The notes under the pieces are model-generated. The model had not been told where the DNA came from, searched no databases, and saw only the letters and a program-made list of their open reading frames with translations. From Methylovulum psychrotolerans (GTDB taxonomy: Bacteria > Pseudomonadota > Gammaproteobacteria > Methylococcales > Methylomonadaceae): 32,834 nt of DNA. The translations under genes and the position numbers were made by a program. Shown here piece after piece: positions 6,287 through 28,379 of the stretch; the stretch's first letter is position 1, and the number at the start of each line of letters is the position of its first letter. The DNA lies in assembly GCF_002923755.1 (NCBI RefSeq), contig NZ_PGFZ01000021.1:2141-34974 (forward strand), given 5' to 3'.

Positions 6287-7099
6287 TTAGTTCTGGTTTT
6301 CCGCCGCCTCATAGTGATTGAAATTCACATCCATAAAATCACTACGGATTCCCGCGTACCCTGGCGTTAAAATACGTTCAATATCAGCCCCGGTATCTTC
6401 AATTTCAAGCACCTTTGTCCAACCAGGGCCGAGTTGCTGATCGTTGAGATACAACGATATATCGACGCTACCATTAGCGGTGTCTGCGATAACGGTTTTA
6501 AGCCCAACCCAACGGTTGACAGGCAGCAGGTTAGGAAGGGTTTCGCGGTTATAAGCTCCGGGGTATACCGCAACGGATTTCAATTCATAATAGCGGCCTT
6601 GGCTTTTCTTTTTAACGATGGCAAAACCATCGACCCGAATCCCGGCATAGTAAAGGTTTTTACCGTCCTGATAGCGGTGAAAAAACAGCACACCGTTGGA
6701 TTGGTTGCGGTTCGGGCTGGCCGATAGGTTAATGTTTTTAATATTGAAAAAGACTTGTTGGGTGAAGTTCTTAAATTTGCCGAGCGTTACTAAACGGAAT
6801 ATATTTTGTGGCCTATAGCCATTGTCAGTGTCGATGGGATTAGAGGCCGCGTAGAGCAAACGGAAGCGGTCTATACCTGAAAGCTCGCCTGTCACCGTGC
6901 TAGCGATACCGTTGGCACGGTAGAAATAGGCGCCGGAATTAAGCCACCAATGCGGGTCAGGGCTATCGCTCATATTGCCGGTTTCACTCAGTGTGGCGAC
7001 ATTATCAAAATCATCAATAAAAACCTCCCCTGAAGCCGCTGTGTTAAAAACAACAAACAACAATAACGTTGATAGGTTTAATAATTTCGAATTGGCCAT
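6287..7099 (-). CDS. Secreted jelly-roll-like protein (possible glycan binding)
   Basis: A 270-residue protein with a signal peptide (MANSKLLNLSTLLLFVVFNTAASG). The mature part starts FIDDFDN and continues with beta-rich text (FNIKNINLSASPNRNQSNGVLFF, YYAGIRVDGFAIVKKK, 'NRWVGLKTVIADTANGSVDISLYLNDQQLG'). This resembles the concanavalin-like jelly rolls of the LamG/DUF1080 group and of glycan lyases. No catalytic residues can be named. Its layout recalls the central part of the FN3 protein at 28.4-30.2 kb ('...[19 protein letters not shown]'). AAAGG lies 9 bases before the ATG. It lies 45 bases downstream of the FixJ-type regulator, so is probably co-transcribed. It may bind or process the polysaccharide made by the neighbouring cluster. 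Confidence 0.55.
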   Translation of the reverse strand: MANSKLLNLSTLLLFVVFNTAASGEVFIDDFDNVATLSETGNMSDSPDPHWWLNSGAYFYRANGIASTVTGELSGIDRFRLLYAASNPIDTDNGYRPQNIFRLVTLGKFKNFTQQVFFNIKNINLSASPNRNQSNGVLFFHRYQDGKNLYYAGIRVDGFAIVKKKSQGRYYELKSVAVYPGAYNRETLPNLLPVNRWVGLKTVIADTANGSVDISLYLNDQQLGPGWTKVLEIEDTGADIERILTPGYAGIRSDFMDVNFNHYEAAENQN

Positions 7100-7144: not shown

Positions 7145-7786
7145 TTAAGCGCAAAGTGCCTTGTTATTTAATTCATTGTTGTACATGGCTATCCTAATCA
7201 GGCCGACGATATTGCCCGCTTCCAGTTTTTCCATGATATGCGCCCTATGCAAATCAATGGTACGGTAACTGATACCAAGAATTCGAGCCGCCTCTTTGTT
7301 TGAATAGCTGTCCATAATAAGATGCAGCACTTCTTTTTCCCGGTCAGTTAACCGGTCTATCCGCTCTTGTCTTTCCAGTTTGCTGCGCCGTTCTTGCCAA
7401 GCCTCTGTGTCTTTCCTCAGCGCTTCGTTGATCCGTTCAATCAATAACGCGGTATCCAACGGTTTTTTCAGAAAATCGACGGCACCGGCCCTAAAGGCTT
7501 TTGCCGAATCGGGGATGCCGGCATGGCCGCTGATAAAGATAATAGGGATGGCGATGTCTTTTTTCGCCAGCTGTTGCTGAAGGCCAAGCCCGTCCATTCC
7601 GGGCAGGTTCACATCCAACACAAGGCAGCTGGGCACCTGGTGGTTGTAGTCATGCAAAAACGCTTCGGCAGACTCAAACTGTCTGACAGTTTGTCCTGTT
7701 GCTTCAATTAACAGCCTGAGCGAATCACGCACTGAAAAATCATCGTCAACGATATAAACTAAACGGGTAAGGTCATCTTGTTTCAT
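7145..7786 (-). CDS. FixJ/NarL-family response regulator
   Basis: A 213-residue two-component regulator. The receiver domain (about 5-120) has the acidic pair in YIVDDD, the phospho-acceptor Asp in LVLDVNLPGMDG, Ser in FISGHAG and Lys in FLKKPLD. The LuxR-type helix-turn-helix (about 145-205) reads LTDREKEVLHLIMDSYSNKEAARILGISYRTIDLHR. It binds DNA when phosphorylated. I place the start at 7786 (MKQDD) rather than 7801 because GAGG sits 9 bases before it. The PAS kinase upstream is the natural partner. Target genes may include the neighbouring glycan genes, but this is inference. Confidence 0.88.
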   Translation of the reverse strand: MKQDDLTRLVYIVDDDFSVRDSLRLLIEATGQTVRQFESAEAFLHDYNHQVPSCLVLDVNLPGMDGLGLQQQLAKKDIAIPIIFISGHAGIPDSAKAFRAGAVDFLKKPLDTALLIERINEALRKDTEAWQERRSKLERQERIDRLTDREKEVLHLIMDSYSNKEAARILGISYRTIDLHRAHIMEKLEAGNIVGLIRIAMYNNELNNKALCA

Positions 7787-7922
7787 TGCATTTATCCTCA
7801 TTCAGTAGCTGTCTTTACGACCCGGTCGGCGGCGGTGGCTCTTAAGCTACACTCCGTTAAACATTTAACCGCTTATTGAAGGCTTAAGGTAACCGTCTGC
7901 CCGGCAATAAAGGCACTTAGTA

Positions 7923-8609
7923 TTAACAATAAAAATACCGGGTGGCACGGCTACCCGCTTCAAGTACGGAAATGGCTTCGTGGTAGTCAATGACATTGGC
8001 ATGGTTAGCTAAAATATAATCGGCCAACGCGGTGATCGCGAGCCAATGGGGTGTTTCGCTGATAAAATTGAATGCGGCCAAAAATAACCGGTTCAATTCG
8101 TTTTCCCTCAACTCATCACTATCAGTCAAGTAATCCAAGTACTGGTTGACAATTGTTAAATCAGACAAACCGCCATAATAAGTTAACGCATAGGCATTTA
8201 TCGATCGTGGCCCCAGCAGTTCGTCATCCCGTATTGCACTGTATTTAGCTTCCGCTAAAGGCCCTACCAACAGATTGATCATATCGGCTTCAAATGCGGT
8301 TTTATAAGTAAGCAGTTGTGGAGTGGAAAATTTTTCGGTTCCCCCAGCAGCAGGCGGCAAACTCTGGATCAAACGGCCACCTTCTATTTTTGCGACCGGT
8401 TGTTGGCAATGTTGCTTGACAAAAAGGGCTTGTTGAAAATAGCTATCTAAGGTTTGCACAACGATCTGAAAAAAAACCGGCGGCAATTTTTTTTCCCGGT
8501 TGCCAAAATAAATGGCGGCGGCATGGCCGGCTTCATGGATAGCCACTTTTCTGCGTTCGCTATGATAGGTTGACCGGGATATTTTTTTAATGCGCTGTAT
8601 ACGGTTCAT
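7923..8609 (-). CDS. Stand-alone M41 (FtsH-type) peptidase-domain protein, paralogue
   Basis: A 228-residue paralogue of the protein at 260-943; both share IHEAGHAAAIYFGNREKKLP-type text at the active site and the LLVGPLAEAKYS and YGGLSDLTIVNQYL segments. HEAGH is at residues 25-29. It has no ATPase or membrane part. A strong GGAGG lies four bases before the ATG. It sits between two response-regulator genes of one apparent operon, so it may cleave or modulate a regulator or be a signalling output. Function unproven. Confidence 0.8.
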   Translation of the reverse strand: MNRIQRIKKISRSTYHSERRKVAIHEAGHAAAIYFGNREKKLPPVFFQIVVQTLDSYFQQALFVKQHCQQPVAKIEGGRLIQSLPPAAGGTEKFSTPQLLTYKTAFEADMINLLVGPLAEAKYSAIRDDELLGPRSINAYALTYYGGLSDLTIVNQYLDYLTDSDELRENELNRLFLAAFNFISETPHWLAITALADYILANHANVIDYHEAISVLEAGSRATRYFYC

Positions 8610-8710
8610 AGAACCTCCTCTAAATATTGCGTACTAGAAGTAAGCCAACCACTATTATTTTTAGGTTATTGCCCTGTGTATGACGTAGAAATTTATGACA
8701 AACCATATAG

Positions 8711-9097
8711 TTACCAGTATCTTTGTTGGTTTATGGCCATAGCCGTACGGACGCTATCACGCAGGTTTTGTCCGTTCACCGGCTTGGTTAGAAAATCAAC
8801 GGCCCACGCCTTAATAACTTTAACCGCCACCGAAATGTCTTCATACCCGGAGAGAAAAATGATCGGAATGCTAATGTCCCGACGGAGCAATTCAGCCTGT
8901 AGTTCGGGGTCTGTCATATTGGGCATACAAACGTCAAGCACCAGACAACCTGTGGCCTGCGGATCAAAAATGGCTAAAAAGTCTTTACAGGAAGCGAAGC
9001 TTTCGACAGTAAAACCATATGCCCCCAGTTGTAAAGCCATGCCTCCCCGGACATCATGGTCATCATCAATAATAAAAACAGTAGGTTGCGTGTTCAT
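8711..9097 (-). CDS. Receiver-only response regulator
   Basis: A 128-residue protein that is only a receiver domain: FIIDDDHD, phospho-acceptor D in LVLDVCMPN, FLSGYE and FLTKPV. There is no DNA-binding output, unlike the FixJ-type protein two genes on. The usual AGAVDF before the Lys is AWAVDF. The ATG at 9097 overlaps the kinase stop as ATGA, showing translational coupling, so the longer frame starting at 9169 is not used. It probably takes phosphate from the kinase and acts by protein contact or as a phosphate sink. Confidence 0.85.
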   Translation of the reverse strand: MNTQPTVFIIDDDHDVRGGMALQLGAYGFTVESFASCKDFLAIFDPQATGCLVLDVCMPNMTDPELQAELLRRDISIPIIFLSGYEDISVAVKVIKAWAVDFLTKPVNGQNLRDSVRTAMAINQQRYW

Positions 9098-11160
9098 AAA
9101 GGCCTTGTGGATGCGAAAGGGACAGTTAAATAAAACGCCGCGCCGGGGTTGTCGTCTGCCTGGAACCACAGTCGTCCGCCCTGAGCTTCAACCAAAGCCC
9201 GGCTGATCGCCAAACCCATCCCTAAGCCATGGGACTTGGTGCTATAAAAAGGCTCAAAAATACGCTTAGCCGCTTCCGCATCAAGACCTTGGCCGCAATC
9301 CCGGATACAAACCTGTGCCTCGGAGGTACTGATAGCGCAGACTGTCACCATTAGGGAACCTGCCGTCAGACCGATGGCGTGCATAGATTCAACGCCGTTA
9401 CATAGCAGGTTAATCAACACTTTTTCAAGTTGCAGGGTATTGGCTTGTACCTTGGGAAGGTTCTTTTCCAGGCTAAGCTTGACGGTAAATTGCTGGATCC
9501 GACCATCTTCTTTCAGGACGGCAACGACTTTACGCACGATGTGGTTAAGGGAAAGCGGCGCGGTGACGGTTTCCCCAGTACGCAGAAACCCGAACAACTG
9601 ATGGACGAACTGGCCGGCTCTGCGGATTTGTTCGGTGCTTTGCTCCAGCGCGTAGACCAATTTTTCCGGTTGCTTATTGCCGGCCTGAAATAAGCAGTGG
9701 GCGGCATCGGCATAAGAAGCCGCCGCACTCAACGGTTGGTTAAGGTCATGGGCGATCGCGGCGACGGTTTGGTTAACAATCTCAAGCTTCAATAGCCGTT
9801 CATATTGGCTATGGTATTCGCGTTGCTGCTGTTCGTAGTGTTTACGCTCAGTGATATCGACGAAGCTGCCTACCATACGCACAGGCTTGCCTTTCGCATC
9901 CCGCTTCACAACAATGCCATTCTCCTGCACCCAAATATAACTGCCGTCCGCCCTGCGCAAACGGTGCTCACTATGGAAACGCTCGCCCGTCCTAAGCGCT
10001 AGCCGGAGCTTGCGCAACACGTCTTTGCGGTCATCCTCTTGGAGCAGTGTGATAAAAAACGACGGCTGGGTGTAGGTGGGGATATTTTTGTCTAAACCGA
10101 GCAGTTCATACCATTTGTCATTATGGTGGGTTTTATTCCCAATGATATCCCAATCCCAAAGGCCTTCCCCGCTCGCATCCAAGACTAAGGCCAGCCGCTC
10201 TTCGCTGTCTTGAAGAGCCTGTTCGGCTTGTTTGTGCTCGGTAATATCCCGAAGGATGCCGGTATAATACCGCTCGTTCCCCTCATGGAAGTCACCAATA
10301 CCGACACTCAATAAAAGGCTGGCTCCATCTTTCCGCCGCACGCTAAACTCCCGTTGGATACGGAAGGGCTTAGGCTTTTCGGTAGGGGATGGGAAACAAC
10401 CGTCAAAGCTTTGTGACAGTCCCATCAGCTTATTGATGCTGTGGCCGATGATTTCTTGCGCCGATACACCCAGCATGGTCTCGGCGGCTTTATTAAAAAC
10501 CCGGATGATGCCCCGGTGGTCAATCGTAATGATACCGTTGACCGCCGTGTCAATAATGGCCTGAAGCCGTATTAAACCGTTACGCAGCTGTTCTTCGGAG
10601 TGTTTGAGTTCCGTAATGTCATTGATGACCGTACACAAGCTGATTGCGCCGCTGGCTTTATCCCTAACCACACCGGCATCCAGCCTGACCCATATCTTAG
10701 CGCCGTCTTTACGCAACAGGCGCGGCTCAAAAGTACGCCACTCGCCGCCGCCCAGCAGTTGCCGAAAATACAAGGCACAGGCATCTTGATCTTCCGGAAT
10801 GACAAAATCACTTAATGGCCGCCCGATAAAGGCCTCTTTTGTTATCCGCAATAACAGGCTAGCCGTAAGATTGGCCGCCAAGATCAGCCCCTTATGGTCG
10901 AGTGAGAGGTAACCTACGGGCAGTTGGTCGTAAAGCTCAATGTAGCAGGCCTGCACATTCTGTAATTCTGCGGGTATATAGGGCAGCTTTTCACTTTGGG
11001 TCATGTCAGCTCCCTGATATGCCTGCGGCTCATGAAGGGCGCGTATGGTTTCAGAAGAAGTGCCCAATAAAAAGCTGCGTTCGCTACGCCTACGGAACTT
11101 AGCGCTTCTGGAACCGGCCCAACAGGAGTTATAGAGATTATTTTTCGATGTTATTGTCAT
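9094..11160 (-). CDS. PAS-domain sensor histidine kinase
   Basis: A 688-residue kinase with no membrane segment. About 50 basic residues are followed by three PAS domains (about 75-185, 195-305 and 320-435; 'ELYDQLPVGYLSLDHKG', 'IIDTAVNGIITIDHRGIIRVFNKAAE', 'ALVLDASGEGLWDWD'). Two are followed by a PAC-like 'DITE.K' segment. The phospho-acceptor His is in AAIAHDLNQPLSAAASYA. The ATP-binding domain shows VLINLLCNGVESM, CIRDCGQGLD and GLGMGLAISRALV. It is FixL-like in layout, but the PAS cofactor cannot be told. The start at 11160 has AAGGAG before it; MTQSEK at about 11008 has its own GGAG and is an alternative. The stop overlaps the receiver gene. Confidence 0.88.
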   Translation of the reverse strand: MTITSKNNLYNSCWAGSRSAKFRRRSERSFLLGTSSETIRALHEPQAYQGADMTQSEKLPYIPAELQNVQACYIELYDQLPVGYLSLDHKGLILAANLTASLLLRITKEAFIGRPLSDFVIPEDQDACALYFRQLLGGGEWRTFEPRLLRKDGAKIWVRLDAGVVRDKASGAISLCTVINDITELKHSEEQLRNGLIRLQAIIDTAVNGIITIDHRGIIRVFNKAAETMLGVSAQEIIGHSINKLMGLSQSFDGCFPSPTEKPKPFRIQREFSVRRKDGASLLLSVGIGDFHEGNERYYTGILRDITEHKQAEQALQDSEERLALVLDASGEGLWDWDIIGNKTHHNDKWYELLGLDKNIPTYTQPSFFITLLQEDDRKDVLRKLRLALRTGERFHSEHRLRRADGSYIWVQENGIVVKRDAKGKPVRMVGSFVDITERKHYEQQQREYHSQYERLLKLEIVNQTVAAIAHDLNQPLSAAASYADAAHCLFQAGNKQPEKLVYALEQSTEQIRRAGQFVHQLFGFLRTGETVTAPLSLNHIVRKVVAVLKEDGRIQQFTVKLSLEKNLPKVQANTLQLEKVLINLLCNGVESMHAIGLTAGSLMVTVCAISTSEAQVCIRDCGQGLDAEAAKRIFEPFYSTKSHGLGMGLAISRALVEAQGGRLWFQADDNPGAAFYLTVPFASTRPL

Positions 11161-12278: not shown

Positions 12279-13559
12279 CTACAGCCGCCAAACTTTAATG
12301 CCGGCCTGTTCCAGTTTATGCACATTGAAATAAGACTTAACATCGATAAAACACCCGCCTTTAATCAGTTTTTTCTGAAAATCCTCAACCGATAACGCGG
12401 TAAATTGCTCATGCGACACCGCCGCGACAATGGCATCCGCTCTCGGCATATCCTCCCAAGACAGTAACCGTAAGCCATATTCCTTCATGGCTTCATCGGG
12501 ATCCGCATACGGATCATGGACAAACACGTCCACACCATATTTTTTTAACTCATTAATGATGTCCATGACTTTAGAGTTGCGCATATCAGAACAATTTTCT
12601 TTAAAGGTCAACCCTAATATATTGACCCTTGCGCCTTTCACATAACTGCCGCAGGCGATCATGTTTTTAAGAGTTTGCTCGGCGATGAATTTACCCATGC
12701 CGTCATTTATGCGTCTGCCGGCAAGAATAACCTGCGGATGGTAGCCCAGCATCACGGCTTTATGGGTCAAATAATAAGGGTCGACACCAATACAATGCCC
12801 ACCGACCAAGCCGGGTTTGAATTTCAGAAAATTCCATTTGCTGCCGGCCGCCTCCAAGACTTCGGTGGTGTCGATGCCGAGCATGTCAAAAATGATCGCC
12901 AACTCGTTCATCAGCGCGATATTTAGGTCACGCTGGGTATTTTCGATCACTTTGCAGGCTTCTGCCGCCTTGATGCTAGAGCAGCGGTAAACGCCGGGCT
13001 TGACTATCCTTTCATAAACGTTTGCGACTATCTCCAGGGTTTCCGGCGTATCGCCCGACACCACTTTCAGAATGGTGCTTAAGGTATGTTCGCGGTCGCC
13101 GGGATTGATCCGTTCGGGCGAGTAGCCGACAAAAAAATCCTGTTTCCAAACCATGCCTGATTCCTTGGCGAGAACCGGAATGCACACTTCTTCGGTTGCG
13201 CCCGGATAGACGGTGGATTCATAAATGACCACCGTGCCTTTCTTCATGTATTTGCCGACGAAGCGGCTGGCCGCTATGAGCGGGCTAAAGTCGGGAATGT
13301 GCGCCCCGTCAACCGGGGTCGGTACGGCCATGATAATAACGTCCGCCTCGGACAACAGGCTGGGGTCTGAAGAATACTCCGCATAGACGGCCGCCTGCAT
13401 AGCGTCCTCGGACAATTCATGGGACGGGTCAACGCCATTTTTACAAGATTCGACTTTATGTTCGGCAATATCAAAACCGATGGTGCGTGAATGCTTGCCC
13501 AGCTCAACAACCAGCGGCAAACCCACATAACCTAAACCTATAACTGCAATAATTGACAT
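12279..13559 (-). CDS. tviB: UDP-N-acetylhexosamine 6-dehydrogenase (TviB/WbpO type)
   Basis: A 426-residue NAD-dependent nucleotide-sugar dehydrogenase that oxidises the C6 hydroxyl of a UDP-sugar to a carboxylate in two steps. The N-terminal GLGYVGLP binds NAD; ESTVYPGATEE and ENTQRDLNIALMNELA are family motifs. GGHCIGVDPYYL holds the catalytic Cys. The C-terminal domain holds the FKENCSDMRNS region. The style fits the TviB/WbpO group acting on UDP-GlcNAc/UDP-GalNAc better than the UDP-glucose group, but substrate cannot be settled by eye. AAGGAA lies 6 bases before the ATG. It likely supplies UDP-HexNAc uronate (or UDP-GlcA) to the polymer made by the GT2 at 25.8-27.1 kb. A transposable-type element separates it from the exporter gene. 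Confidence 0.85.
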   Translation of the reverse strand: MSIIAVIGLGYVGLPLVVELGKHSRTIGFDIAEHKVESCKNGVDPSHELSEDAMQAAVYAEYSSDPSLLSEADVIIMAVPTPVDGAHIPDFSPLIAASRFVGKYMKKGTVVIYESTVYPGATEEVCIPVLAKESGMVWKQDFFVGYSPERINPGDREHTLSTILKVVSGDTPETLEIVANVYERIVKPGVYRCSSIKAAEACKVIENTQRDLNIALMNELAIIFDMLGIDTTEVLEAAGSKWNFLKFKPGLVGGHCIGVDPYYLTHKAVMLGYHPQVILAGRRINDGMGKFIAEQTLKNMIACGSYVKGARVNILGLTFKENCSDMRNSKVMDIINELKKYGVDVFVHDPYADPDEAMKEYGLRLLSWEDMPRADAIVAAVSHEQFTALSVEDFQKKLIKGGCFIDVKSYFNVHKLEQAGIKVWRL

Positions 13560-14173: not shown

Positions 14174-17100
14174 TCAAAACTTCATGGCGAAGCCGACAAA
14201 TGCACTAAAGTTGGCATAAGTGGCGGCTTGATAACGGTTCGCAGAAAGGTTTAGGCTAAGGTCGTCGTTCAAATTCCAACTTAACATGCCGGTCGAGTTG
14301 ATCTGAAACTTAAACTCATTGCCCGCTTCCTTCCCCATGCCCGGTTCAACGGCTAGTGTCGCAACGACAGATTGCCCCCACTTCTTTTTAAAGTTGACCG
14401 GGACGGCAAAGGCCATATAATTTTGCGGCGCCCAAAACAACCGGCTAGTATGCGCGGTGTCGTCATGGATGAACTGGGCGCCAACCGTGACGTTCGGGTC
14501 GTCCCAAACCTTGCTGTCCAACTCCACCTCAGTCCGGTTGCGTTGGTTGTTATTGGTATAGTCAAAATAAGCATGGCTGATGCTTAAACTGAGGGGGTCG
14601 GACAATTTTATGGTGGCCCCGCCCAAAATTCGGGTGAAGGCAATGTTGTTTAAAATTGCCCCGGCCGTGTTGACGAAAGTATGGTCGACGGCGATGGACA
14701 AATCCAAGCTGTCACCGATACCGGCATTCAATTTGGCCGCCGCTAAAGGGAATGTCGGGGCGGATTTTGACGGTTCAGAAGACGCATGGCCGGAGAAGTA
14801 CATAGCGCCTGCCGACACCTCTATAGAGGAACGGCGGCCCAATTCATAGTTTAACTGGCCTTCAAACTGATTCCCATCGGCTTGAAAATGCTCTTCGCCA
14901 GTTGCCGCCCCCGCACTGGGCGGCGTGAGTTTTTGATAGAAATTCAGGTACTTGTAAGATACCGATAACGCTAGCGCATCCGAAATAGGATAATTGATTG
15001 CGGGGCTGAAACTGTAATAAGAGCGGTGGGCATTGTCATTGAAATAAAGGCCGCTCAATTGCAGGGTCGGTTTCAGGCGACGGTCAAGCACCGCGATTTC
15101 CTTTTGAATCGCGGTATCGTTGAGGCGCAGCGCCGATGCTTGGGTAAGCCGCTCCCTGGCGGCGGCATGGTCGCCGCTCCAATTGAGCACCTTGCCTGAA
15201 GCAAGCAGCAATTCGGCGTTATCGCCCGCCCCTTGGTCAGCTAACTTATCGTAGATGGTCAAAGCCTGTGCGTAATGCCCGGATTCCACATCCAAATGCG
15301 CCAATTTGTAAGATGCCGACCGTTCGGGGTTTATGGCCTGTAACTGCCGGACAAGGTCTTGTCCGGAAAACGTCCTAGGCACTTCAAAGCGCGGTAAGGT
15401 AAATCTGGATGTTGTGCCGGAAACCAGATAAGTATTGTCGACGTTAAAAGCCAAGCTAAAATGTTTTTTTATCAGGCCTTGGTTAATGCCGAATGCTTCG
15501 GTGGCATTAGAAAGCGACCGGTGCCCTTGGTCACCATAGGGGAAAGCGAAAGCAAAAATATTCACGCCGGGTACCTCGCGGCTTATGGTTTCTTTACACG
15601 TCAGCAAATCACGCTCAATACGCGCGGCGTATTCCTGATCCGTTTCTAAGCGGGCCGCATCCGCCAGCCACATCCTGTTGGCAAGAAAATGGCCTTTACC
15701 GCCTTGGGCATTAACGGCGACATAGTGCTGCGCATTGGCCCCATGACATTGCATGTCCCAGCGCCCGGTCGCAAACATTTTTCTGACGGTTGGCCAGACT
15801 GCCGCATAGGGCTGATGCGCGGCGACATCACCTACGGGCACAAACATCGTCGCTTGAAAACCCGTTGCTACCAAAACGGGATCCGCATACTGAAAGCTGT
15901 CCGAACGGGCATCATCAAACGTGATCAAAATAGGTTTGGCGGGCAGCAGGGACTGCCCGTCAAAAAAACTCCGCAGTTGGGTAATGGTGATCGCTTGATA
16001 ACCTGCCCTTTTTAGGGCCAATAATTGGTCTTTGAAATTTTGTAAAGGCACGGTGTCCTGGCGGTCAGAAGCCGTGATGCCATGGTAAAGCAAGACCGGG
16101 ATAGTTTGGGACGGGGACGCTATAAGCCCATTGAGCATTGTAAAGGCTTGGTCTTTATCGCCCTTGGCATAGGCCAGCTCGGCAAGGTTTTCCTGTAATG
16201 ACGAGCTGTTGGGGAAAAAAGGCCTACTGTGTTCGAGCATGATGCTGGCCGCCGAATAGTCGCCCTGATCCTTATAGATAAGGGCAAGCTGTTTGATGAC
16301 ATCCACGGAATTGGGGTACTTGGCGTAAAGCTGTTCGCCAAGCTTGGCCGCTTCCGCTAACTGTCCCTGAAGGCGCAGGACGCGGAGCATGTCAACCGGC
16401 GCCATCGATTTAACCGGATCGAGGGCGGCGGCTTGCTCCAAGTCATGCAAGGCCGCCCGATATTGGCTCATTGCCGCTTCATGTTTGCCTTGGGTATCGT
16501 TACCCTCCCCCAACTCGATGCGCAATTTGGCAACCCGGCTCAGCCGCTCTGAAGTCGGTTCGATGGCCGCAAGCTTGGCGGCCCAGAACACGGCGGCGCC
16601 AATATCTCCAGAAAATACGGCATCGTCGGCAATTAGGCTGATGGCCGGTATTTTATCGGGTTCCTTAGCCAACACGTCGTGGGCTATTTTTACCGCTTCC
16701 CCGTGGTGCCCTGCCCTATGTAAAACACTGGCCAGCCTTAGTTGCCATTTGGAGTCATCCGGATGTAAGGCCGCCAGCGTTCTGAGCTCCCGTTCAGCCA
16801 GCTCCCAATTGCTGGCCGCCGAGGCATTTTCGGCCAGTAGTGTCCGCACGGCTTCATTGTCGCCATGCCTCACCAAGTACCCCTGTAGCAGCGCTATTGA
16901 TTCGTTATAAGCATGTCGGTTCCAGTAAGTGTGCGCAAGCCCGATCACGGCCTTATCATCTTCAGGCGCCAATTGCAGGCTTTGTTGGAAGTAACTGGCC
17001 GACTCAGTATCTTTGCCCAAATCGGCCAAAATAGTCCCCAAACGGCAGAGGTTCTTAGGGCTGGGGTCGCGTTCGACAAGCGGCTGTAAGAGGCGTGCCG

Positions 17101-18199
17101 CCTCTTCGTCACGATGCTGGGCAACCAAAATTTCGGCCATTGCAAAACCTGCTTTGGCATCCATAGGCGCTTGTGCCAAAATCGGCCTTATCTCCGATTC
17201 AGCCGCCGGGTAGTTTTGCTGGGCAGAAAATAGCCTTGCCCGGCCAAAACGGGCGGCCTGCTCTTGAGGGGCTTTTTGTAAAGCCTGGGTATAATAATCC
17301 AAGCCTTGTTGCCAAAGCCCGTCCTGCTCGCTGGCCTTGCCCAGCGCCAAAAAAGTCGGCAAATCATTGGGAAAAGCTTGCAAGATACCCTGCCAAAGCG
17401 TGTAGGCCTGCTGGTTTTGGCCGGCTTTGCGCAGGCTGTCGCCCAAGCCCCGCCAAGCGTTAAGCGTGCCTATGTCGGCACTACCGCCCAAGCTGCTTTT
17501 ATAGGCATCAGCCGCTTGCCTGTAGTTACCCGTTGCCGCCAGCGCCCGGCCTAGGCGGCGCAGATTGGCCGGCACGGGTGCGAGTGTCCGCAACACGCTT
17601 TCTGCTTGGGCATAGCGGCCTTGTCCCAGCAAGGCATCGGCCAGCAGAGATAGGGCGGCGGGGTCAGCCGGTGCGGTCTCCAAGATCGCCGTTAAATCCT
17701 GCTCCGCCAAGGCGAATTGGTGTTGGCCGACCAATAGCCTCGCCCGGCCTTGATGTGCATCCTGATTGCTTGGGTCAAGCCCTAGTACCTGACCATAATA
17801 ATTGGCCGCCTCAGCCTGGCGGTTATCTTGCTCGCCAGCTTTGCCGAGCGCCAACAAAGTCGGCAAGTCATTAGGAAATGCCTGGGCCAGGTCTGTCCAT
17901 ATCTGATAAGCCTGCGCTTTTTGCCCTAGCGCCCAATGGCTCCAGGCAAGGCCGCGCCATGCCGGCAACGAACCTTTGTCGGACTCAATGGCCTGTTCAA
18001 ACTCCCGGCGGGCATCAGCGAACTTCTTTTCCGAATAGAGTGCGTTGGCATGTTCCAGAACAGAGCCTATGGGGGAGTTGGCTATCTCTTCGGGTCTGGT
18101 GTTACCCGAAAGCAAAATTAAGGCCATGCCTAGCGCTTTGCCTTGGGATGCAGGTTTGCTAAACAGCCATTGTGAATTAAGCTGAGTTAATCCTAACAT
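14174..18199 (-). CDS. TPR + polysaccharide deacetylase + outer-membrane barrel fusion (PgaA/PgaB-like exporter)
   Basis: A 1341-residue protein with three parts. A weak signal (KALGMALILLSG near residue 25) precedes about 18 TPR-like repeats (about 45-690; 'A..G.YAQAE', 'ALL.LGKA.EQD'). A NodB/PgaB-like deacetylase follows (about 697-965): IPVLLYHGI, LITFDDARSDSF (metal Asp pair near 762), CHGANAQHY near 816 and FAFPYGDQGH near 888. A short TPR linker leads to a beta-barrel of about 300 residues (1040-1341) ending in Phe (VGFAMKF). PgaA of the PNAG system has TPR plus a barrel of like size and works with a separate PgaB deacetylase; here the deacetylase sits between TPR and barrel in one chain. 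Likely role: export with coupled deacetylation of an amino-sugar polymer at the outer membrane. Confidence 0.8.
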   Translation of the reverse strand: MLGLTQLNSQWLFSKPASQGKALGMALILLSGNTRPEEIANSPIGSVLEHANALYSEKKFADARREFEQAIESDKGSLPAWRGLAWSHWALGQKAQAYQIWTDLAQAFPNDLPTLLALGKAGEQDNRQAEAANYYGQVLGLDPSNQDAHQGRARLLVGQHQFALAEQDLTAILETAPADPAALSLLADALLGQGRYAQAESVLRTLAPVPANLRRLGRALAATGNYRQAADAYKSSLGGSADIGTLNAWRGLGDSLRKAGQNQQAYTLWQGILQAFPNDLPTFLALGKASEQDGLWQQGLDYYTQALQKAPQEQAARFGRARLFSAQQNYPAAESEIRPILAQAPMDAKAGFAMAEILVAQHRDEEAARLLQPLVERDPSPKNLCRLGTILADLGKDTESASYFQQSLQLAPEDDKAVIGLAHTYWNRHAYNESIALLQGYLVRHGDNEAVRTLLAENASAASNWELAERELRTLAALHPDDSKWQLRLASVLHRAGHHGEAVKIAHDVLAKEPDKIPAISLIADDAVFSGDIGAAVFWAAKLAAIEPTSERLSRVAKLRIELGEGNDTQGKHEAAMSQYRAALHDLEQAAALDPVKSMAPVDMLRVLRLQGQLAEAAKLGEQLYAKYPNSVDVIKQLALIYKDQGDYSAASIMLEHSRPFFPNSSSLQENLAELAYAKGDKDQAFTMLNGLIASPSQTIPVLLYHGITASDRQDTVPLQNFKDQLLALKRAGYQAITITQLRSFFDGQSLLPAKPILITFDDARSDSFQYADPVLVATGFQATMFVPVGDVAAHQPYAAVWPTVRKMFATGRWDMQCHGANAQHYVAVNAQGGKGHFLANRMWLADAARLETDQEYAARIERDLLTCKETISREVPGVNIFAFAFPYGDQGHRSLSNATEAFGINQGLIKKHFSLAFNVDNTYLVSGTTSRFTLPRFEVPRTFSGQDLVRQLQAINPERSASYKLAHLDVESGHYAQALTIYDKLADQGAGDNAELLLASGKVLNWSGDHAAARERLTQASALRLNDTAIQKEIAVLDRRLKPTLQLSGLYFNDNAHRSYYSFSPAINYPISDALALSVSYKYLNFYQKLTPPSAGAATGEEHFQADGNQFEGQLNYELGRRSSIEVSAGAMYFSGHASSEPSKSAPTFPLAAAKLNAGIGDSLDLSIAVDHTFVNTAGAILNNIAFTRILGGATIKLSDPLSLSISHAYFDYTNNNQRNRTEVELDSKVWDDPNVTVGAQFIHDDTAHTSRLFWAPQNYMAFAVPVNFKKKWGQSVVATLAVEPGMGKEAGNEFKFQINSTGMLSWNLNDDLSLNLSANRYQAATYANFSAFVGFAMKF

Positions 18200-18325: not shown

Positions 18326-20755
18326 TCAGGGTGCGAGCGTCATCATGTAATCATCAGTCACTAATGTGCCTATATTATTCAAGTACAAACCAAAGGAAAT
18401 GGCGGTCGCCCCAGCCGGTACCGGTGGTGTGGTATAGCTTGCCTTGGCCCAATTGCTGGCCGCTGCGGCATTAGAGCTGGTCTGCCAATAGATCCAGGTT
18501 CCCGCGCTATTGCGGTAATAAACCACTATGCCTACAGGAAGGGTTGACTTGTACCAGCCGCTCAGGGTGTAACGGGCCCCTACCGTGACGCTCGGCGCAC
18601 AAGTGCTGGTATCCTGACGCTGCACCAGTTTACGGTCACCGCTGGCCAGACTGGTCACTTGCAATTGTTCGGCGAAGTTGCCGGTATGGCCTTCGTTACT
18701 GATGCGGGTCCAACTATAGGCGTTGGTGCCATAACCGGTACGTTGCCAGCAATCGGCAATGCCGTCTTTGTTGGCATCGAGTTCCAGCGAGGGGTTAGTG
18801 AGCAAATTCCCGACATTATTACTGACCGTCACGTTGACTATCGGTGTTTGGGTCTGGTTACCCGCCGCATCAAAAGCGACGGCGGCAAGCGTTGCCCCGC
18901 CGTTGGCGTTTAACAGGGAGTTCCAATTAATGGCATAAGGCGCCGTATTTGCGGAGCCGACTACCGCACCGTTCACCAAAAAGTCTACGCGCGTCACCGC
19001 CACATCATCACTTGCGGTTGCCGCCAGTGCCACCAAACCCGATACTATCCCGCCTTCAACAGGTGTAGGCGGTTGGGTGAGGGATACCACAGGCGGTGTG
19101 GTGTCATTAAACACGTTCAGTTGGTTCGTGGCGGATAGCGCGGTGTTACCGGACAGGTCAACGGCGCGGACGGAATAGGCCACGGCACCGTTCGTGGCTG
19201 TGAGCGAATTCCATGCAGCGGCATAAGGGCTAGTGGTATCGGTAGCGATAACGGTGCCGTTGATCAGAAACTCAACCCGTTGCACAGCGACATTGTCGGT
19301 GGCCGAAGCGGTCAAGGGCACCACGCCGCTGACGTTAGCGCCATTAACAGGTGAGAAATTGGCGATAGTGGGGGGGGCGACATCCGCGTTGGTTTGGCTA
19401 TCCTGAACCAATGCCAGCGAATAGTCGTCTGTGGTCAGTGTACCGACGCGCTCCAAGGCGATGCCAAAACTGATGGCTTGTGCCCCCGTCGGCACCGCCC
19501 CCGTGTTAAAGGTCATTTGTGCCCAACTGTTAGATACCGGCAATTGCGCACCATCGCGCCAATATTGCCAGACACCGGAGGCGTCCAGATAGAACAGTAC
19601 GGGGAAAGACGGCACGGTCGATTTATACCAAGCGCCAATCTGGTAAACGTCGCCTGCCGCCACGGCTGGCGCACAGCCATTGGGCTGGCCGGCATCCATC
19701 GTCGGCACCAATTTACGGTCACCCGTACTGTAGCTGGTGATATTCAACTGCTCGGCAAAGCTTCCGGTATGGGCATCGCTGATGCGTGTCCAACTAGGGC
19801 TGTTGCTTCCGTAGCCGTCCCTCGTCCAGCAGTCCGCTTGATTATTACCGTCAATATCATCCTCTAACGAGGCGTTAATCAACAGGTTTGAGCTGAGCTG
19901 AAGCTGGGGTGGGCTAGGATAATCGCCGGACATCACTTGATGCACGGTCTTGACATAAGTGCTCTGTAATTGCCGTCCTTCCAACCATGCCAAAAAGGCA
20001 TCCAAAGTGGCCGGGCTGACCGACAGCGGCACGCAATTGTCACAGACACGGTGGAACAGCAAAGTCACCCAGCCGCCGCCGTTGGTTTCTGCTTGGGTCA
20101 CATAGGTTTTTAAGTCATCAAGCGTTGTTGTTGTGTCTACCGATTTATTGCTGGAAATATGATAAATATTGCTGGCGGGGATGGATTCTGCCCAAGGGCA
20201 GCTAGTGCATTCCGTACCCGATAACAATCCGCCGACCCCGCGGGCGCTTTCATAAGTCCCCACTCCTGGGCATCCGGCCATGACTATGCTCTGGGTATTC
20301 ACCCCGGTAGAGCCGTACGGATAGGCAAACGAATGTATCGGGTATCCCCAATTGACCAAATTTTGCATATCCGTACAAATTGCCGTTTGCTGGGCGGCAT
20401 CCGACAGCGTCGCCAAGTCGACATGGTTGATGGTATGCCCGCCTATTTCGTTGCCGTCAGCATATAAGCCGTCCAATTCGGCCTTAGTCAAATAAGTCCC
20501 GCCACTATTGATCAGGTTAGAGTTGACATAAAAAGTGCCTTGCATACCATGGCTGGCCAAAATATTCCGGACTGGCGATTGGGTCAGGCCATCGTCAAAA
20601 GTCAGCGATACCAGCGTCAAGGCCGGGGTGCTGGCCTGTGCCGGTTGGCTTAAGGCCACCGCTGACAAACCGGCAACCAGCAGCCAGTAAACAAAAGCTA
20701 AGCAGGCATCCATAGCGTGCCATTTAGCGCGTTTTTTAATAAATAGTGTCTTCAT
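18326..20755 (-). CDS. Secreted polysaccharide deacetylase with two CBM-like and two Ig-like modules
   Basis: An 809-residue secreted enzyme. The signal peptide ends near residue 41 (LSQPAQA). The NodB domain (about 45-275) has LTFDDG (52-56), GGHTINH (105-111; H-x3-H metal site) and FAYPYGSTG (143-151). After it come a CBM-like beta module ('NLLINASLEDDIDGNNQADCW...TTDDYSLAL'), two Ig-like repeats ('NGANVSGVVPLTASATDNVAV' and a copy), and a second CBM-like module ending at the C-terminus. NodB enzymes remove acetyl groups from GlcNAc-type polymers. GGAG five bases before the ATG sets the start at 20755, overlapping the stop of the small gene upstream. It probably trims the polymer after export. 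Confidence 0.85.
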   Translation of the reverse strand: MKTLFIKKRAKWHAMDACLAFVYWLLVAGLSAVALSQPAQASTPALTLVSLTFDDGLTQSPVRNILASHGMQGTFYVNSNLINSGGTYLTKAELDGLYADGNEIGGHTINHVDLATLSDAAQQTAICTDMQNLVNWGYPIHSFAYPYGSTGVNTQSIVMAGCPGVGTYESARGVGGLLSGTECTSCPWAESIPASNIYHISSNKSVDTTTTLDDLKTYVTQAETNGGGWVTLLFHRVCDNCVPLSVSPATLDAFLAWLEGRQLQSTYVKTVHQVMSGDYPSPPQLQLSSNLLINASLEDDIDGNNQADCWTRDGYGSNSPSWTRISDAHTGSFAEQLNITSYSTGDRKLVPTMDAGQPNGCAPAVAAGDVYQIGAWYKSTVPSFPVLFYLDASGVWQYWRDGAQLPVSNSWAQMTFNTGAVPTGAQAISFGIALERVGTLTTDDYSLALVQDSQTNADVAPPTIANFSPVNGANVSGVVPLTASATDNVAVQRVEFLINGTVIATDTTSPYAAAWNSLTATNGAVAYSVRAVDLSGNTALSATNQLNVFNDTTPPVVSLTQPPTPVEGGIVSGLVALAATASDDVAVTRVDFLVNGAVVGSANTAPYAINWNSLLNANGGATLAAVAFDAAGNQTQTPIVNVTVSNNVGNLLTNPSLELDANKDGIADCWQRTGYGTNAYSWTRISNEGHTGNFAEQLQVTSLASGDRKLVQRQDTSTCAPSVTVGARYTLSGWYKSTLPVGIVVYYRNSAGTWIYWQTSSNAAAASNWAKASYTTPPVPAGATAISFGLYLNNIGTLVTDDYMMTLAP

Positions 20756-21543: not shown

Positions 21544-22920
21544 TTAAGGCATGGAAACCATCGAATAGTCATCGGTGGTCAACGTACCGACACGTTCCAA
21601 GGCGACACCAAAGCTAATAGCCTTGACGCCCACGGGTACGGGGCCGGTCTGATAGACCATTTGTGCCCAACCGGTTGCTGCCGGTAAAGGCGGGCCATCC
21701 ACCCAATACTGCCAATTGTTGGCCGCATCAAGGTAAAACAATACCGAGAACGCCGGCACCGTGGATTTGTACCAAGCACTGATTTGGTAACTCTGCCCAG
21801 CCTGTACCGCTGGCGCACAACCGCCCGGTCGGCCTGCATCCATAGTCGGTAACAATTTAAGGTCACCGCTGGTGTAACTGGTGACTTTCAACTGCTGGGC
21901 AAAGCTTCCGGTATGGGCATCGCTAGTGCGTGTCCAAGTGGCTTTGTTACTGCCATACGAATCACGCGACCAACAATCGGGCTGGCTATTATTGTTGGCA
22001 TCAATCTCCAAAGAGGGATTAATCAATAAGTTGGCAGGCGGTGGTGGTGGTGGTGGTGGTGGCGGTGGCGGTGGCGGTGTGCCGGTAGTGTCGCCGGACA
22101 TGACCTGATGCACCGTTTTGACAAAAGTATTCTGTGCTGGCCGCGCTTCCAACCAGGTCAGAAAGGCATCCAGCGTCGCCGCGCTCACAGAATAGGTATC
22201 GCAGCCGTCGCAAACCCGGTGGAAAACCAACGGCACCCACCCCCCACCATGCGTTTCGGCTTGCGTCACATACCCTTGTATGGTTGCCAACGGTGTGGTT
22301 TTAACAATCGAACTGCTGGTATAAATAAAATAGGGATTGACTGGCGGAATGGTATCGGCAAACGGACAACTCGAACACGACGTTGTTGTCACCAGCCCCC
22401 CCACTGTCCGGGCGCTTTCATACGTCCCCACACCCGGACAACCGGCCGCCACTATGCCTAAGGTGTTCGGCCCGGTAGAGCCGTACGGATAAGCAAACGA
22501 ATGCACTTGATAACCCCAATTGACCAAGTTTTGCATATCGGTACAAATTGCGGTTTGCTGCGCCGCCGCCGATAGCGTCGCCAAATCGACATGGTTGATG
22601 GTATGCCCGCCTATCTCATGACCGTCAGCATAAAGCGCGTCGAGTTCGGTTTTGGACAGATAACCGTTAATGCCGATCATATTCGAGTTGATATAAAAAG
22701 TGCCTTTCATGCCATGCTTGGCGAGCAGGGCATGTACATCCGATTGCGTCAGGCCATCATCGAAGGTCAATGACACGAGTGTCACTGGCGGAGTGGCGGC
22801 TTGCACCGGGGCTGTAAGGGCCGCCGCCGCCAACCACGCCATCAGCAACAGCTTAAAAAAAGACCAAACAGTGCCCATTACTCCCCATCTGGACAAGGCC
22901 TTTATGGGTAGCGTGTTCAT
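21544..22920 (-). CDS. Secreted polysaccharide deacetylase with poly-Pro linker and CBM-like module
   Basis: A 458-residue secreted enzyme. The signal peptide ends near residue 41 (TAPVQAA). The NodB domain (about 45-275) has LTFDDG (51-56), GGHTINH (104-110) and FAYPYGSTG. Next is a linker of 14 prolines, then one CBM-like module ('NLLINPSLEIDANNNSQPDCW' to 'TTDDYSMVSMP'). The enzyme domain is close to that of the 809-residue paralogue, so the pair arose by duplication, with loss or gain of the extra modules. Its start overlaps the stop of the small secreted-protein gene (ATGA). Confidence 0.87.
   Translation of the reverse strand: MNTLPIKALSRWGVMGTVWSFFKLLLMAWLAAAALTAPVQAATPPVTLVSLTFDDGLTQSDVHALLAKHGMKGTFYINSNMIGINGYLSKTELDALYADGHEIGGHTINHVDLATLSAAAQQTAICTDMQNLVNWGYQVHSFAYPYGSTGPNTLGIVAAGCPGVGTYESARTVGGLVTTTSCSSCPFADTIPPVNPYFIYTSSSIVKTTPLATIQGYVTQAETHGGGWVPLVFHRVCDGCDTYSVSAATLDAFLTWLEARPAQNTFVKTVHQVMSGDTTGTPPPPPPPPPPPPPPANLLINPSLEIDANNNSQPDCWSRDSYGSNKATWTRTSDAHTGSFAQQLKVTSYTSGDLKLLPTMDAGRPGGCAPAVQAGQSYQISAWYKSTVPAFSVLFYLDAANNWQYWVDGPPLPAATGWAQMVYQTGPVPVGVKAISFGVALERVGTLTTDDYSMVSMP
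22036..22077. repeat. Trinucleotide run encoding 14 prolines
   Basis: Fourteen codons, read on the minus strand, are CCN; seven consecutive codons are CCA (TGG on the plus strand). Such a run can change length by slippage and would alter the enzyme-CBM spacing in steps of one residue without frameshift. Confidence 0.9.
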
Positions 22921-23558
22921 AACGCCTCCAAGTTTAAGACAACAGGTTGGGCTAATTGCGTTTCCCCGTTATCAGGGGAAACTGACATGACCATCGTATA
23001 ATGTCCGCTTGAACGGAACGTTACCCGTAGCTGCCAGGTGCTGTTTGCCTTATTGCCGATGCTGAAACCGCCGCCTTTATGCGGGTCGTTATGGACTTCC
23101 CCGGGTGCGCCAATCGCCCCTATGACCCCCTCGTCGATGAGTTCGACCAGTATCGGTTGCCACTGATTATTTTCCAGGACATCGATTTTGATGTCATCAG
23201 GCCCTACGGAACGTTCCATACCATCATGGACGATCAAACGTAGCCGCGAATCGCGTAATGCCAAACTTGGGTTAACCAAATGTACATTAATGCCTTCCAA
23301 CGGCACCCCTACTTTTGCGGTGGTCGGGCTGCTCACAGTCAGCGTCAGAGGTGGCCGGGGGCGGCTATCCGCCATGGCGGCCCCCCCTCCCCAACTGCCG
23401 GTAACCAGCGGCAGTGCCGCAACTGCCGTAACCGCCAAGGTGGCGGCAAGACACGAGCGTGCCACCGCCTTTACGGCATAATGGATCTTCCCGTGCGTAT
23501 CGGCCACCTTATATCCCCTTTTACAAGCGGTATAATTGCCAGTGTCTGTATTGTTCAT
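22917..23558 (-). CDS. Small secreted Ig-like protein of unknown function
   Basis: A 213-residue protein. The N-terminus has a long basic lead then a hydrophobic export segment (SCLAATLAVTAVAALPLV). The mature part is beta-rich ('LTLTVSSPTTAKVGVPLEGI', 'SRLRLIVHDGMERSVGP', 'WQLRVTFRSSGHYTMVMSV'), Ig- or FN3-like. I do not recognise the family. A leader AAGGTGTTATGAC precedes the ATG, as in the paralogue at 20752-21282. Its stop overlaps the deacetylase start (ATGA), so the two should be made in fixed ratio. It may be a partner or carbohydrate-facing subunit of the deacetylase. Confidence 0.7.
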   Translation of the reverse strand: MNNTDTGNYTACKRGYKVADTHGKIHYAVKAVARSCLAATLAVTAVAALPLVTGSWGGGAAMADSRPRPPLTLTVSSPTTAKVGVPLEGINVHLVNPSLALRDSRLRLIVHDGMERSVGPDDIKIDVLENNQWQPILVELIDEGVIGAIGAPGEVHNDPHKGGGFSIGNKANSTWQLRVTFRSSGHYTMVMSVSPDNGETQLAQPVVLNLEAL

Positions 23559-23820: not shown

Positions 23821-25758
23821 TTACTGTGCCGACGGATACAGCAACCTGGGTGTGGCGGGCAATAGCTCAGGGCGGGCGGATACCCATAACAATCCGTCAT
23901 CGCCCTGGCGTGGCAAGGCCTGTCCTTGCTTGTCCAGTAAAGTCACCGCCAACGTCTTACCCGCTTGGTTCATCCGCCGACTTAAACCGCGCAGAAATGG
24001 CTGCCATTTCTGTGTGTCCTGGGCCGTGTTCAGAAGGATGTTCAGGCCGTCATAGCCCGGCTCAGAAGCCCATGCCAACGCTTGCCCGGTCAACGCCGCC
24101 ATTTCTGCCAAAGCAGGTGGGGTGTCAATGGCGAGTGCGGGCAATAATTGCAGGTGGTGATAGCGGGCGAAAATCTCCATAGGGCTATTATGGCCGCCTG
24201 ATACTTGGGGCTTGCCGTCTAGCCAAGCGAAATAACGGGGGCTGAGCATAGAAAGGTCTCCGGCCCGTTGGCTGAGTTGCGCCAAGGTCGCCGCACCGGG
24301 TAGCGGGGCAATAATTCCGCCTTTAAGGAACAAAGGCGTGGCGGTGATTTGCTGTAAATTGACTAACGCATTTCCTGAGGCGACCTGCCCGTCACCGGTC
24401 TGTTCATTCCAGACCGCCAAGGCGAAGGCGCCGTGATCGGCGGCTTCTGGCAGTTCGGTTGGCCTGCTTAATAACGCCTCGCCATTCAGATAGGCAAGGG
24501 CATGAAAACCCACCACATGCAGCCTCAAGGTAATATCGCCAGTTGGGGACTCCCGGCTCGCCAATTGCTTGAAGGCATCAATGCCATCGTATTTTTGCAA
24601 TATCACCTGGCCTTTGGCCAGACCCAGGCGCACAAACGGCTGACCGGTCCGATAACGCAAGGCTATCCAGAATTGGCCTTCAGGTTGGCCTTTCAGCCGC
24701 ACTTCAACATCGGCATCTTGCCACTTCTCAGTGCCTCCCAGCGTCATCAAAGCCCCCTGCTCCCCGGCTTTGTTGAACAATTGCAGATTGCCGTCCGTCA
24801 CCGCAATGTCCCCACTGTCGACCATCCATTCTGACGCACTAGAATTAGCCTGGAAGGTGTCGGTAAAGGCCTGCCGACGCGGTGTATGGGTATTAATCTG
24901 GGCAAGAAGATCCTGTGGGTTCCATGTTCTTGAAACGCGGATACGCCTGAAGCCGAACTCAGGATCACTCCAATAATTTGCCCCGAACGGCGCCGCCACG
25001 AAACCCATCGGCAAATAAGCGATGCTTAGGGCTTGCTGCCAAACTTCCTCGCTGTTGTCGTGGTCAGAAGTCCAGCGGCGGGGGCAATTGGCGGCGCTAA
25101 CCGGAACCTTAAGCCGGTGTTCAAGCAGTTCACGTTGCTGGGTCAGTTTGTGCGCCAAGGCGGCTTGGGAAGTAAGCTCTGGATTGTCTTGGCCCGAACA
25201 GCCGGATATGCCTATTTCCCAGCGGCCGCTGTTAACCAGTTGTTCCAGCTGATGCCAAGAAACTAATTGGATATTGCCTTGATTGAGCTGGTCGACATCG
25301 ACGAATACGAGTGCGGTCATGCCTAAAGCGGCCAATAGGGGGTCGGCAATCTCCATCGTCTCCCGGTTCGCTTCCTCAAATGTCAGCAAAATCGGCCGGG
25401 CGGGTAAGGGCAGAGTATCCGACTGTAGCCACGGCTTGATCTGCTCAAGGCGTACGGAAGAGTGGCCGGCTTGTTTTAACGCAATCAGTTGCTGCTCAAA
25501 CGCAGAGGCCGCGATTGCCAATTCATGCGTGGCGCTGACCTTCCCGAAGGCAAGGGCAATAAAAGCCTCCCTCTCGGTGTCATTGCCTTTACCTGCTGAC
25601 AACAGGGGGGGTGGCACTTTTAGGGCAAACATAAAATCATTAGACAGTTCCTTAACCGCGAAGATTGCACCGATTCCGACTAGCCACCATACTAAGTTGT
25701 ACCAATGGCAAACTGGCCGGGGTTGTGGCGATATTGATTTTGGCTTGATTGCTTGCAT
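23821..25758 (-). CDS. Membrane-anchored protein with degenerate deacetylase and jelly-roll/GH-like parts
   Basis: A 645-residue protein. One membrane helix (NLVWWLVGIGAIFAV, about 21-35) anchors it. Residues about 80-290 follow the deacetylase layout ('LIALKQAGHSSVRLEQIKPWL', 'RPILLTFEEAN', 'WHQLEQLVNSGRWEIG', 'RIRVSRTWNPQDLLAQI'). But the catalytic TFDD is TFEE and the metal His pair is absent (GISGCSGQ). A LamG/DUF1080-like beta domain follows (about 300-460), and the C-terminus (about 470-645) looks like a worn GH18-type barrel ('PGYDGLNILLNTAQ'). It lies five bases after the GT2 stop and is surely co-transcribed with it. Likely a non-catalytic polymer-binding partner of the synthase, in the place of PgaB. 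Confidence 0.7.
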   Translation of the reverse strand: MQAIKPKSISPQPRPVCHWYNLVWWLVGIGAIFAVKELSNDFMFALKVPPPLLSAGKGNDTEREAFIALAFGKVSATHELAIAASAFEQQLIALKQAGHSSVRLEQIKPWLQSDTLPLPARPILLTFEEANRETMEIADPLLAALGMTALVFVDVDQLNQGNIQLVSWHQLEQLVNSGRWEIGISGCSGQDNPELTSQAALAHKLTQQRELLEHRLKVPVSAANCPRRWTSDHDNSEEVWQQALSIAYLPMGFVAAPFGANYWSDPEFGFRRIRVSRTWNPQDLLAQINTHTPRRQAFTDTFQANSSASEWMVDSGDIAVTDGNLQLFNKAGEQGALMTLGGTEKWQDADVEVRLKGQPEGQFWIALRYRTGQPFVRLGLAKGQVILQKYDGIDAFKQLASRESPTGDITLRLHVVGFHALAYLNGEALLSRPTELPEAADHGAFALAVWNEQTGDGQVASGNALVNLQQITATPLFLKGGIIAPLPGAATLAQLSQRAGDLSMLSPRYFAWLDGKPQVSGGHNSPMEIFARYHHLQLLPALAIDTPPALAEMAALTGQALAWASEPGYDGLNILLNTAQDTQKWQPFLRGLSRRMNQAGKTLAVTLLDKQGQALPRQGDDGLLWVSARPELLPATPRLLYPSAQ

Positions 25759-28318: not shown

Positions 28319-28379
28319 GTGTTCTGTCGTATTTTTTGTGACACCAAGATAACTAATTGAATTGATATTAATTATTTTT

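Follow-up and report, generated by a model that had tools for sequence, protein, structure and literature searches.

Among the closest described counterparts of the locus considered here is the PgaA/PgaB pair of the poly-N-acetylglucosamine (PNAG) system in Escherichia coli. The porin-adjacent tetratricopeptide repeats (TPRs) of PgaA, residues 221–515, bind the deacetylase domain of PgaB (residues 22–309), whose activity is raised 2.3-fold, and no complex was detectable on mixing the individually purified proteins; the authors suggest that the binding may restrict deacetylated polymer to times when export is possible (PMC9384988). In the PNAG system, the coordination between modifying the polymer and exporting it is not yet settled. 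In a stretch of 32,834 nucleotides from Methylovulum psychrotolerans (contig NZ_PGFZ01000021.1; hereafter the window), the open reading frame (ORF) at 14174–18199 on the minus strand encodes, judging by its sequence, PgaA-like and PgaB-like parts in one polypeptide. Like the E. coli pair, this protein combines a TPR scaffold and a barrel of the 16-strand type with a PgaB-like carbohydrate esterase family 4 (CE4) domain. However, PgaA and PgaB are separate polypeptides that associate by way of the pore-proximal TPRs on one and the deacetylase domain on the other (PMC9384988), whereas the window has one chain without the glycoside-hydrolase half, an extra PgaB-like protein whose active site is altered and a different synthase. 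The location of the deacetylase between the TPRs and the porin is as expected from fusing two known partners.

Pel is a different system. Its exporter PelB likewise joins TPRs to a barrel, and these TPRs bind the deacetylase/hydrolase PelA (PMC9384988), but PelA and PelB are two proteins. In Zymomonas, BcsZ is fused to BcsC (BcsZC; PMC7112194), so that there too a periplasmic polymer-modifying enzyme is attached to an exporter, although BcsZ is the hydrolase of the cellulose system and the enzyme domain of the window is a deacetylase. The same source reports N-terminal glycosyltransferase fusions of PgaB in pgaB clades, with no mention of a deacetylase–barrel fusion in the excerpted part. In these proteins, as in similar ones from our own survey (L076–L083, below), a PgaB/IcaB-like CE4 domain is fused to a polysaccharide protein, but the partner is a glycosyltransferase, accompanied in our cases by a methyltransferase, and not a barrel. 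An earlier note on this DNA, made from the sequence, knew of no described system with the order TPR–deacetylase–barrel, and we found no publication describing it in the open-licence literature; the order is nevertheless not unique, being present in a second lineage.

The fused protein and its conservation

The ORF starts with ATG, has no internal stop and specifies 1341 residues; all its features lie on the minus strand. A TPR array, matched by many TPR families of Pfam and NCBIfam, spans approximately residues 45–690 (16130–18067) and is followed by a CE4/PgaB-type deacetylase domain at residues 699–970 (15290–16105). Polysacc_deac_1 (PF01522) matches residues 753–900 with 39 bits, above its cut-off of 23.1, whereas the NCBIfam PgaB model TIGR03938, aligned with residues 699–970 at 81.5 bits, falls far short of its whole-protein cut-off of 321.9; this match covers only profile positions 2–279 of 621, the glycoside-hydrolase half being absent from the fused protein. 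The domain carries the motifs YHGIT (residue 705), TFDDA (760; 15908–15922), HGANAQH (819; 15725–15745) and FPYG (886), and the closest relatives of the C-terminal 664 residues in the PDB are the PgaB deacetylases 3vus, 4f9d and 5bu6 (best E 8.3e-17). In its own genome, TIGR03938 matches nothing besides the fused protein at E ≤ 1e-10. Two TPR-like helical repeats, seen as helices in a low-confidence model, would occupy residues 966–1042 (15074–15304), and a predicted outer-membrane barrel of approximately 16 strands completes the chain (residues 1045–1341; 14177–15067). The barrel of about 300 residues ending in Phe that the earlier note described does end in Phe, the final residue of the protein, but measures about 275–297 residues and is preceded by the two repeats. 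Since the enzyme is placed between the TPR scaffold and the pore, it should be periplasmic and pore-tethered, in agreement with the position proposed for it before.

We modelled residues 965–1341 with AlphaFold2 from an alignment of five sequences. The best model (mean predicted local distance difference test score, pLDDT, 64; predicted template modelling score 0.54) begins with five helices, which are followed by 17 strand elements, or about 16 strands if two short neighbouring elements represent one broken strand, which fits the 14–16 strands anticipated in the earlier note. In Foldseek comparisons of this model with the PDB, BcsC took ranks 1–3 (E 9.8e-12 to 3.2e-11), the PgaA barrel rank 4 (E 1.4e-9, target TM 0.73) and PelB rank 7 (E 1.1e-8), and the matches in a viral structure library were generic barrels. 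The domain search proposed earlier was borne out for the TPRs and for PF01522, the latter above cut-off, but not for PgaA_barrel (PF21197), which gave no match in the window's own copy, and none at E ≤ 1 in its genome; eight of ten homologous barrels were matched weakly (best E 1.2e-4). The NCBIfam PgaA model TIGR03939 scored 80.8 bits against a cut-off of 366.65, and with a profile of the barrel PgaA came up among PDB entries at no better than E 0.41, beside a chitinase at 0.5. On the modelling, it is well supported that the C-terminus is an outer-membrane barrel, and kinship with the barrels of the BcsC/PgaA/PelB exporters is likely; the TPR array and the predicted 16-strand C-terminal barrel place the protein among exporters of this kind.

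The deacetylase–barrel part of 664 residues was matched over residues 3–664 in eight of 237 genomes of the family and, counting the own genome, in ten of the 311 that represent the order. Four of the ten were identified by having the same C-terminal 600 residues as UBA6146, a Kiruna bin (both labelled Methylococcaceae), a metagenome-assembled genome of Methylomonas koyamae and an uncultured proteobacterium. Every one of the ten contains a single stop-free frame of 1316–1370 residues, the shortest running off its contig, and the nine other proteins are 48–67% identical to that of the window over the aligned length (two of the ten, L066 and L068, are near-identical). That TPRs, deacetylase and barrel reside in one protein, as the earlier note observed, is confirmed by the ORF, the Pfam and NCBIfam profiles, the barrel model and ten genomes. 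No barrel relative without the deacetylase was found, as all eight matches in the family are fused and the only match among 229 genomes of the class is the own genome; none of 115 matching plasmid records covers 80% of the query.

Synthase, PgaB-like protein and the proposed route of the polymer

From upstream to downstream on the minus strand, the cluster comprises a glycosyltransferase family 2 (GT2) synthase of the processive type, a second PgaB-like protein (PSB), a conserved protein (U213), two NodB/HfsH-like deacetylases, the fused exporter and a TviB-like dehydrogenase. The synthase gene (25764–27101) ends five bases before that of PSB (23821–25758; 645 residues). Within the fetched stretches, to which all gene counts across the ten genomes refer, synthase and PSB are present in ten of ten genomes; in eight, both are encoded with the exporter on one stretch, and in G384 and G409 synthase and PSB lie on contigs other than the exporter's. 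At one locus (L063:3561–4895) the synthase gene is broken by one in-frame stop.

The synthase scored 190.7 bits with the NodC model (cut-off 550) and 127.4 with that of PgaC (cut-off 422.3), both far below threshold, and its best PDB relatives are hyaluronan synthases (E 2.9e-33), with a chitin synthase at 1.5e-6. PgaC is thus a more distant match for it than NodC or hyaluronan synthase, so that PNAG, the polymer of the system to which the earlier note compared the protein, is not supported, and we infer that a chitin- or hyaluronan-like chain may suit the data better. The bfpABCD cluster of Citrobacter makes a chitin/chitosan-like polymer (PMC6414854).

The earlier note is silent on PSB, which lies in the same cluster and has an altered active site. 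It matches the fused deacetylase weakly (29% identity). The Asp-Asp motif is altered in all ten genomes (TFEEA in six, TFDEA or TFDEP in three, TFDVA in one) and the His-pair site reads I/V-S-x-C; the window's PSB has TFEEA and no His pair. By its sequence, PSB is a conserved apparent pseudoenzyme. A home-made hydropathy scan, used only for hydrophobic stretches, marked residues 22–33, which we read as a putative inner-membrane anchor. In a model built from two sequences (pLDDT 40), Foldseek matches to galectins and PL7 lyases suggest that the middle part is probably a jelly-roll, and the C-terminus appears alpha/beta at low confidence. A tree of 73 such domains from deacetylases, with group labels assigned by locus and frame length, unites those of the fused proteins and of PSB in a single clade (support 98/95), outside the clade of the 23 domains labelled PgaB (100/100). 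A likely history is that a PgaB-like deacetylase was duplicated; the exporter would have captured one copy, whose active site was kept, and the other would have remained separate and lost it.

Taking the fusion and its conservation as established, we infer export, enzyme activity, polymer and geometry in the following way, and assign a probability of about 0.62 to the window protein serving a synthase-dependent exopolysaccharide system as its outer-membrane exporter, with a periplasmic de-N-acetylase built in. The synthase would make and extrude a chain containing N-acetylhexosamine, more like chitin or hyaluronan than like PNAG; PSB, anchored in the inner membrane, would bind the chain and hand it on; the TPR superhelix would guide it outward; and the embedded CE4 domain would remove some of the acetyl groups immediately before entry into the barrel. 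The fusion would set the ratio of enzyme to pore at 1:1 and tie deacetylation to a pore. With scaffold, deacetylase and pore on one chain, there is probably a physical coupling between trimming and export. In such a natural single-chain version stoichiometry and position are fixed and the whole could be purified, which would open the link between deacetylation and pore transit to direct tests.

Several observations weigh against this reading. In one of the ten fused proteins (L065, 3936–8009) the deacetylase has YRG for YHG, DG for DD and QG for HG. This loss of three active-site residues counts against obligatory coupling, so the claim that deacetylation is 'locked' to export does not hold for all ten, and as the PSB of the same locus is also altered, activity seems dispensable for the persistence of the architecture. 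The second His is present in all ten fused proteins but lies one residue later than in PgaB (H-X5-H versus H-X4-H), and metal binding is therefore not certain. The two NodB/HfsH-type deacetylases of the cluster may be the agents of deacetylation instead. Confidence in the barrel model is low to medium, the other four AlphaFold2 models score 32–55, and the generic porin OmpG ranks 5–6, ahead of PelB. The clade of fused and PSB deacetylases joins long branches, including that of PSB. Finally, gaps of 262, 788, 126 and 614 bases occur within the cluster, and with gaps of 614 and 788 bases among them a single transcript is not established.

The main rival explanation, which we consider unlikely although it accounts for some of these points, is that the fused domain is a guide that binds the polymer with a retained CE4 fold and delivers it to the pore, deacetylation being left to the NodB/HfsH-like enzymes. 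Such a guide would agree with the lost residues in one fused protein, the altered ones in all ten sister PSB domains, the displaced His and the two deacetylases encoded alongside. It is harder to reconcile with the retention of Asp-Asp and the first His in nine of the ten fused proteins, which represent five genera, four in one family and one in a second, and with the stretches L072 and L073 of that second family, where synthase, PSB, exporter and U270 (below) are the only cluster genes, two deacetylase profiles find nothing further and the fused domain is intact. We regard as less probable again a PNAG exporter that is simply a PgaA–PgaB fusion within an otherwise ordinary pga operon: the window proteins all miss the NCBIfam cut-offs for PgaA, PgaB and PgaC, the synthase resembles NodC and hyaluronan synthase more, the fused protein lacks a glycoside-hydrolase half and the fused deacetylases stay outside the clade labelled PgaB, against which stand the E. 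coli PgaB as nearest PDB relative of the deacetylase and the weak PgaA_barrel matches in eight homologues. Cleavage of the chain after translation into separate enzyme and pore is very improbable: nothing speaks for it, the model, like BcsC, has the TPR-like helices passing without a break into the barrel, and the alignment, read by eye, has no long variable linker. As for a frameshift, an assembly error or an annotation join of separate genes, which the earlier note named as one outcome that would overturn it, we found nothing in its favour and reject it with hardly any reservation, because the frame is uninterrupted in each of the ten genomes, and the same domain order at 48–67% identity in nine other genomes is neither chance nor a join.

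A second lineage and other deacetylase fusions

The same domain arrangement recurs elsewhere in the class, in a different family of a different order, where genome G212 has a frame of 1178 residues (L084:3461–6997) reading TPR–deacetylase (TFDDA; AHSKTH)–TPR–barrel. This second exporter occurs in five of 12 genomes of that gammaproteobacterial order, the other four copies (L086–L089) being 59–65% identical to the G212 protein. Polysacc_deac_1 was found in all three of the five members that were scanned (72, 79 and 67 bits), and PgaA_barrel lies slightly below its cut-off (20–25 of 27 bits). Used as query against 258 genomes of the class, the second-lineage protein matched 12 at E ≤ 1e-20: two are fused (G212 and G917, both of the second-lineage order), three correspond to the exporter part only and seven to the deacetylase part only. 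Three relatives of the exporter part (L100, L101 and L102) have no Pfam deacetylase in the protein, and two profiles find no deacetylase frame in the 8–13 kb around them; by eye, they have an epimerase and a GT2 in common beside the exporter.

When compared with hhalign, the second-lineage barrel matched the barrels of the unfused systems with a probability of 100 (E 3.7e-39) and the window-type barrel with a probability of 42 (E 2.7e-4), and its GT2 is 43–54% identical to that of the unfused systems as against approximately 24% to the window's. These comparisons, together with the lack of a deacetylase in the nearest exporter relatives, make two captures the better reading, and the sequences suggest that the deacetylase was probably captured twice, independently; a single origin of both fused exporters is not favoured by barrel or synthase. 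The deacetylase tree taken alone is compatible with a common clade (approximately unbiased test, p 0.30), and the unfused relatives may have lost the domain, in place of a second capture. If true, repeated capture at this place in the chain, with the scaffold on one side and the pore on the other, would point, independently and on evolutionary grounds, to the site of deacetylation. More tentatively, and at odds clearly below even, we suggest that the window belongs to an undescribed synthase-dependent exopolysaccharide system of a methanotroph order, in which a synthase of the NodC/hyaluronan-synthase type makes a chitin- or hyaluronan-like polymer, a catalytically dead PgaB relative anchored in the inner membrane serves as carrier and the deacetylase has moved into the exporter; modification built in at the pore would then be a recurrent design, having been repeated independently in a second exporter type. 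By eye, a glycoside-hydrolase-like gene follows the second-type exporter in L084, L103 and L104.

TIGR03938 matched 94 of 349 genomes of the phylum at E ≤ 1e-10. All nine non-own frames of at least 900 residues, together with a 753-residue frame of G842, were read by eye (an 880-residue frame of G623 was left out), and the order TPR–deacetylase–barrel was present in none of these ten. In G775 and G723, which we rejected as fusions, PgaB is preceded by an apparent GC-rich read-through, and in G775 Pfam finds nothing but deacetylase and GHL13. The eight remaining frames (L076–L083) look like glycosyltransferase–methyltransferase–deacetylase proteins, as Pfam confirmed for two. In other genomes of the family, L039, L040 and L056 encode deacetylases of approximately 600 residues that carry, at both termini, conserved extensions of unknown kind. 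The LysM label given to L039–L042 and L056, also in the tree, is unsupported, since in L040 Pfam finds the deacetylase alone and no LysM.

Other genes of the window

Between PSB and the exporter lie U213 (22917–23558, minus strand), a conserved protein of unknown family with a hydrophobic N-terminal stretch, and the two NodB/HfsH-like deacetylases, both on the minus strand: one of 458 residues with a hydrophobic N-terminus, probably secreted (21544–22920), and one with immunoglobulin-like domains (18326–20755). The TTG start listed for the latter (20938) is probably too early, since the alignment with the L063 homologue begins at the ATG of position 20755. These deacetylases were found in eight of the ten genomes and the nucleotide-sugar 6-dehydrogenase (12279–13559, minus strand; TviB-like at 497 bits, cut-off 592) in seven.

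About 5 kb downstream of the cluster, U270 (6287–7099, minus strand) is a conserved protein of unknown family with a hydrophobic N-terminus. It is near the cluster in nine of the ten genomes, the stretch of the tenth stopping before that place; it has no PDB relative by sequence at E ≤ 10, and two of nine members give weak 3-keto-disaccharide-hydrolase matches. The divergently transcribed U617 (28362–30215, plus strand) is distantly similar to U270, has a fibronectin type III-like domain and has homologues near the cluster in six of the nine other genomes.

Between the dehydrogenase and U270, 7145–11160 holds a PAS histidine kinase and two ORFs that resemble response regulators by eye; a kinase-like ORF also follows the dehydrogenase in L063. 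Also by eye, two related ORFs (233–943 and 7923–8609) share an HEAGH motif resembling a zinc-peptidase site, and two others (1663–2106 and 2591–3823), one apparently a fragment, contain repeats of the type INDxGQVVG...HAFLW.

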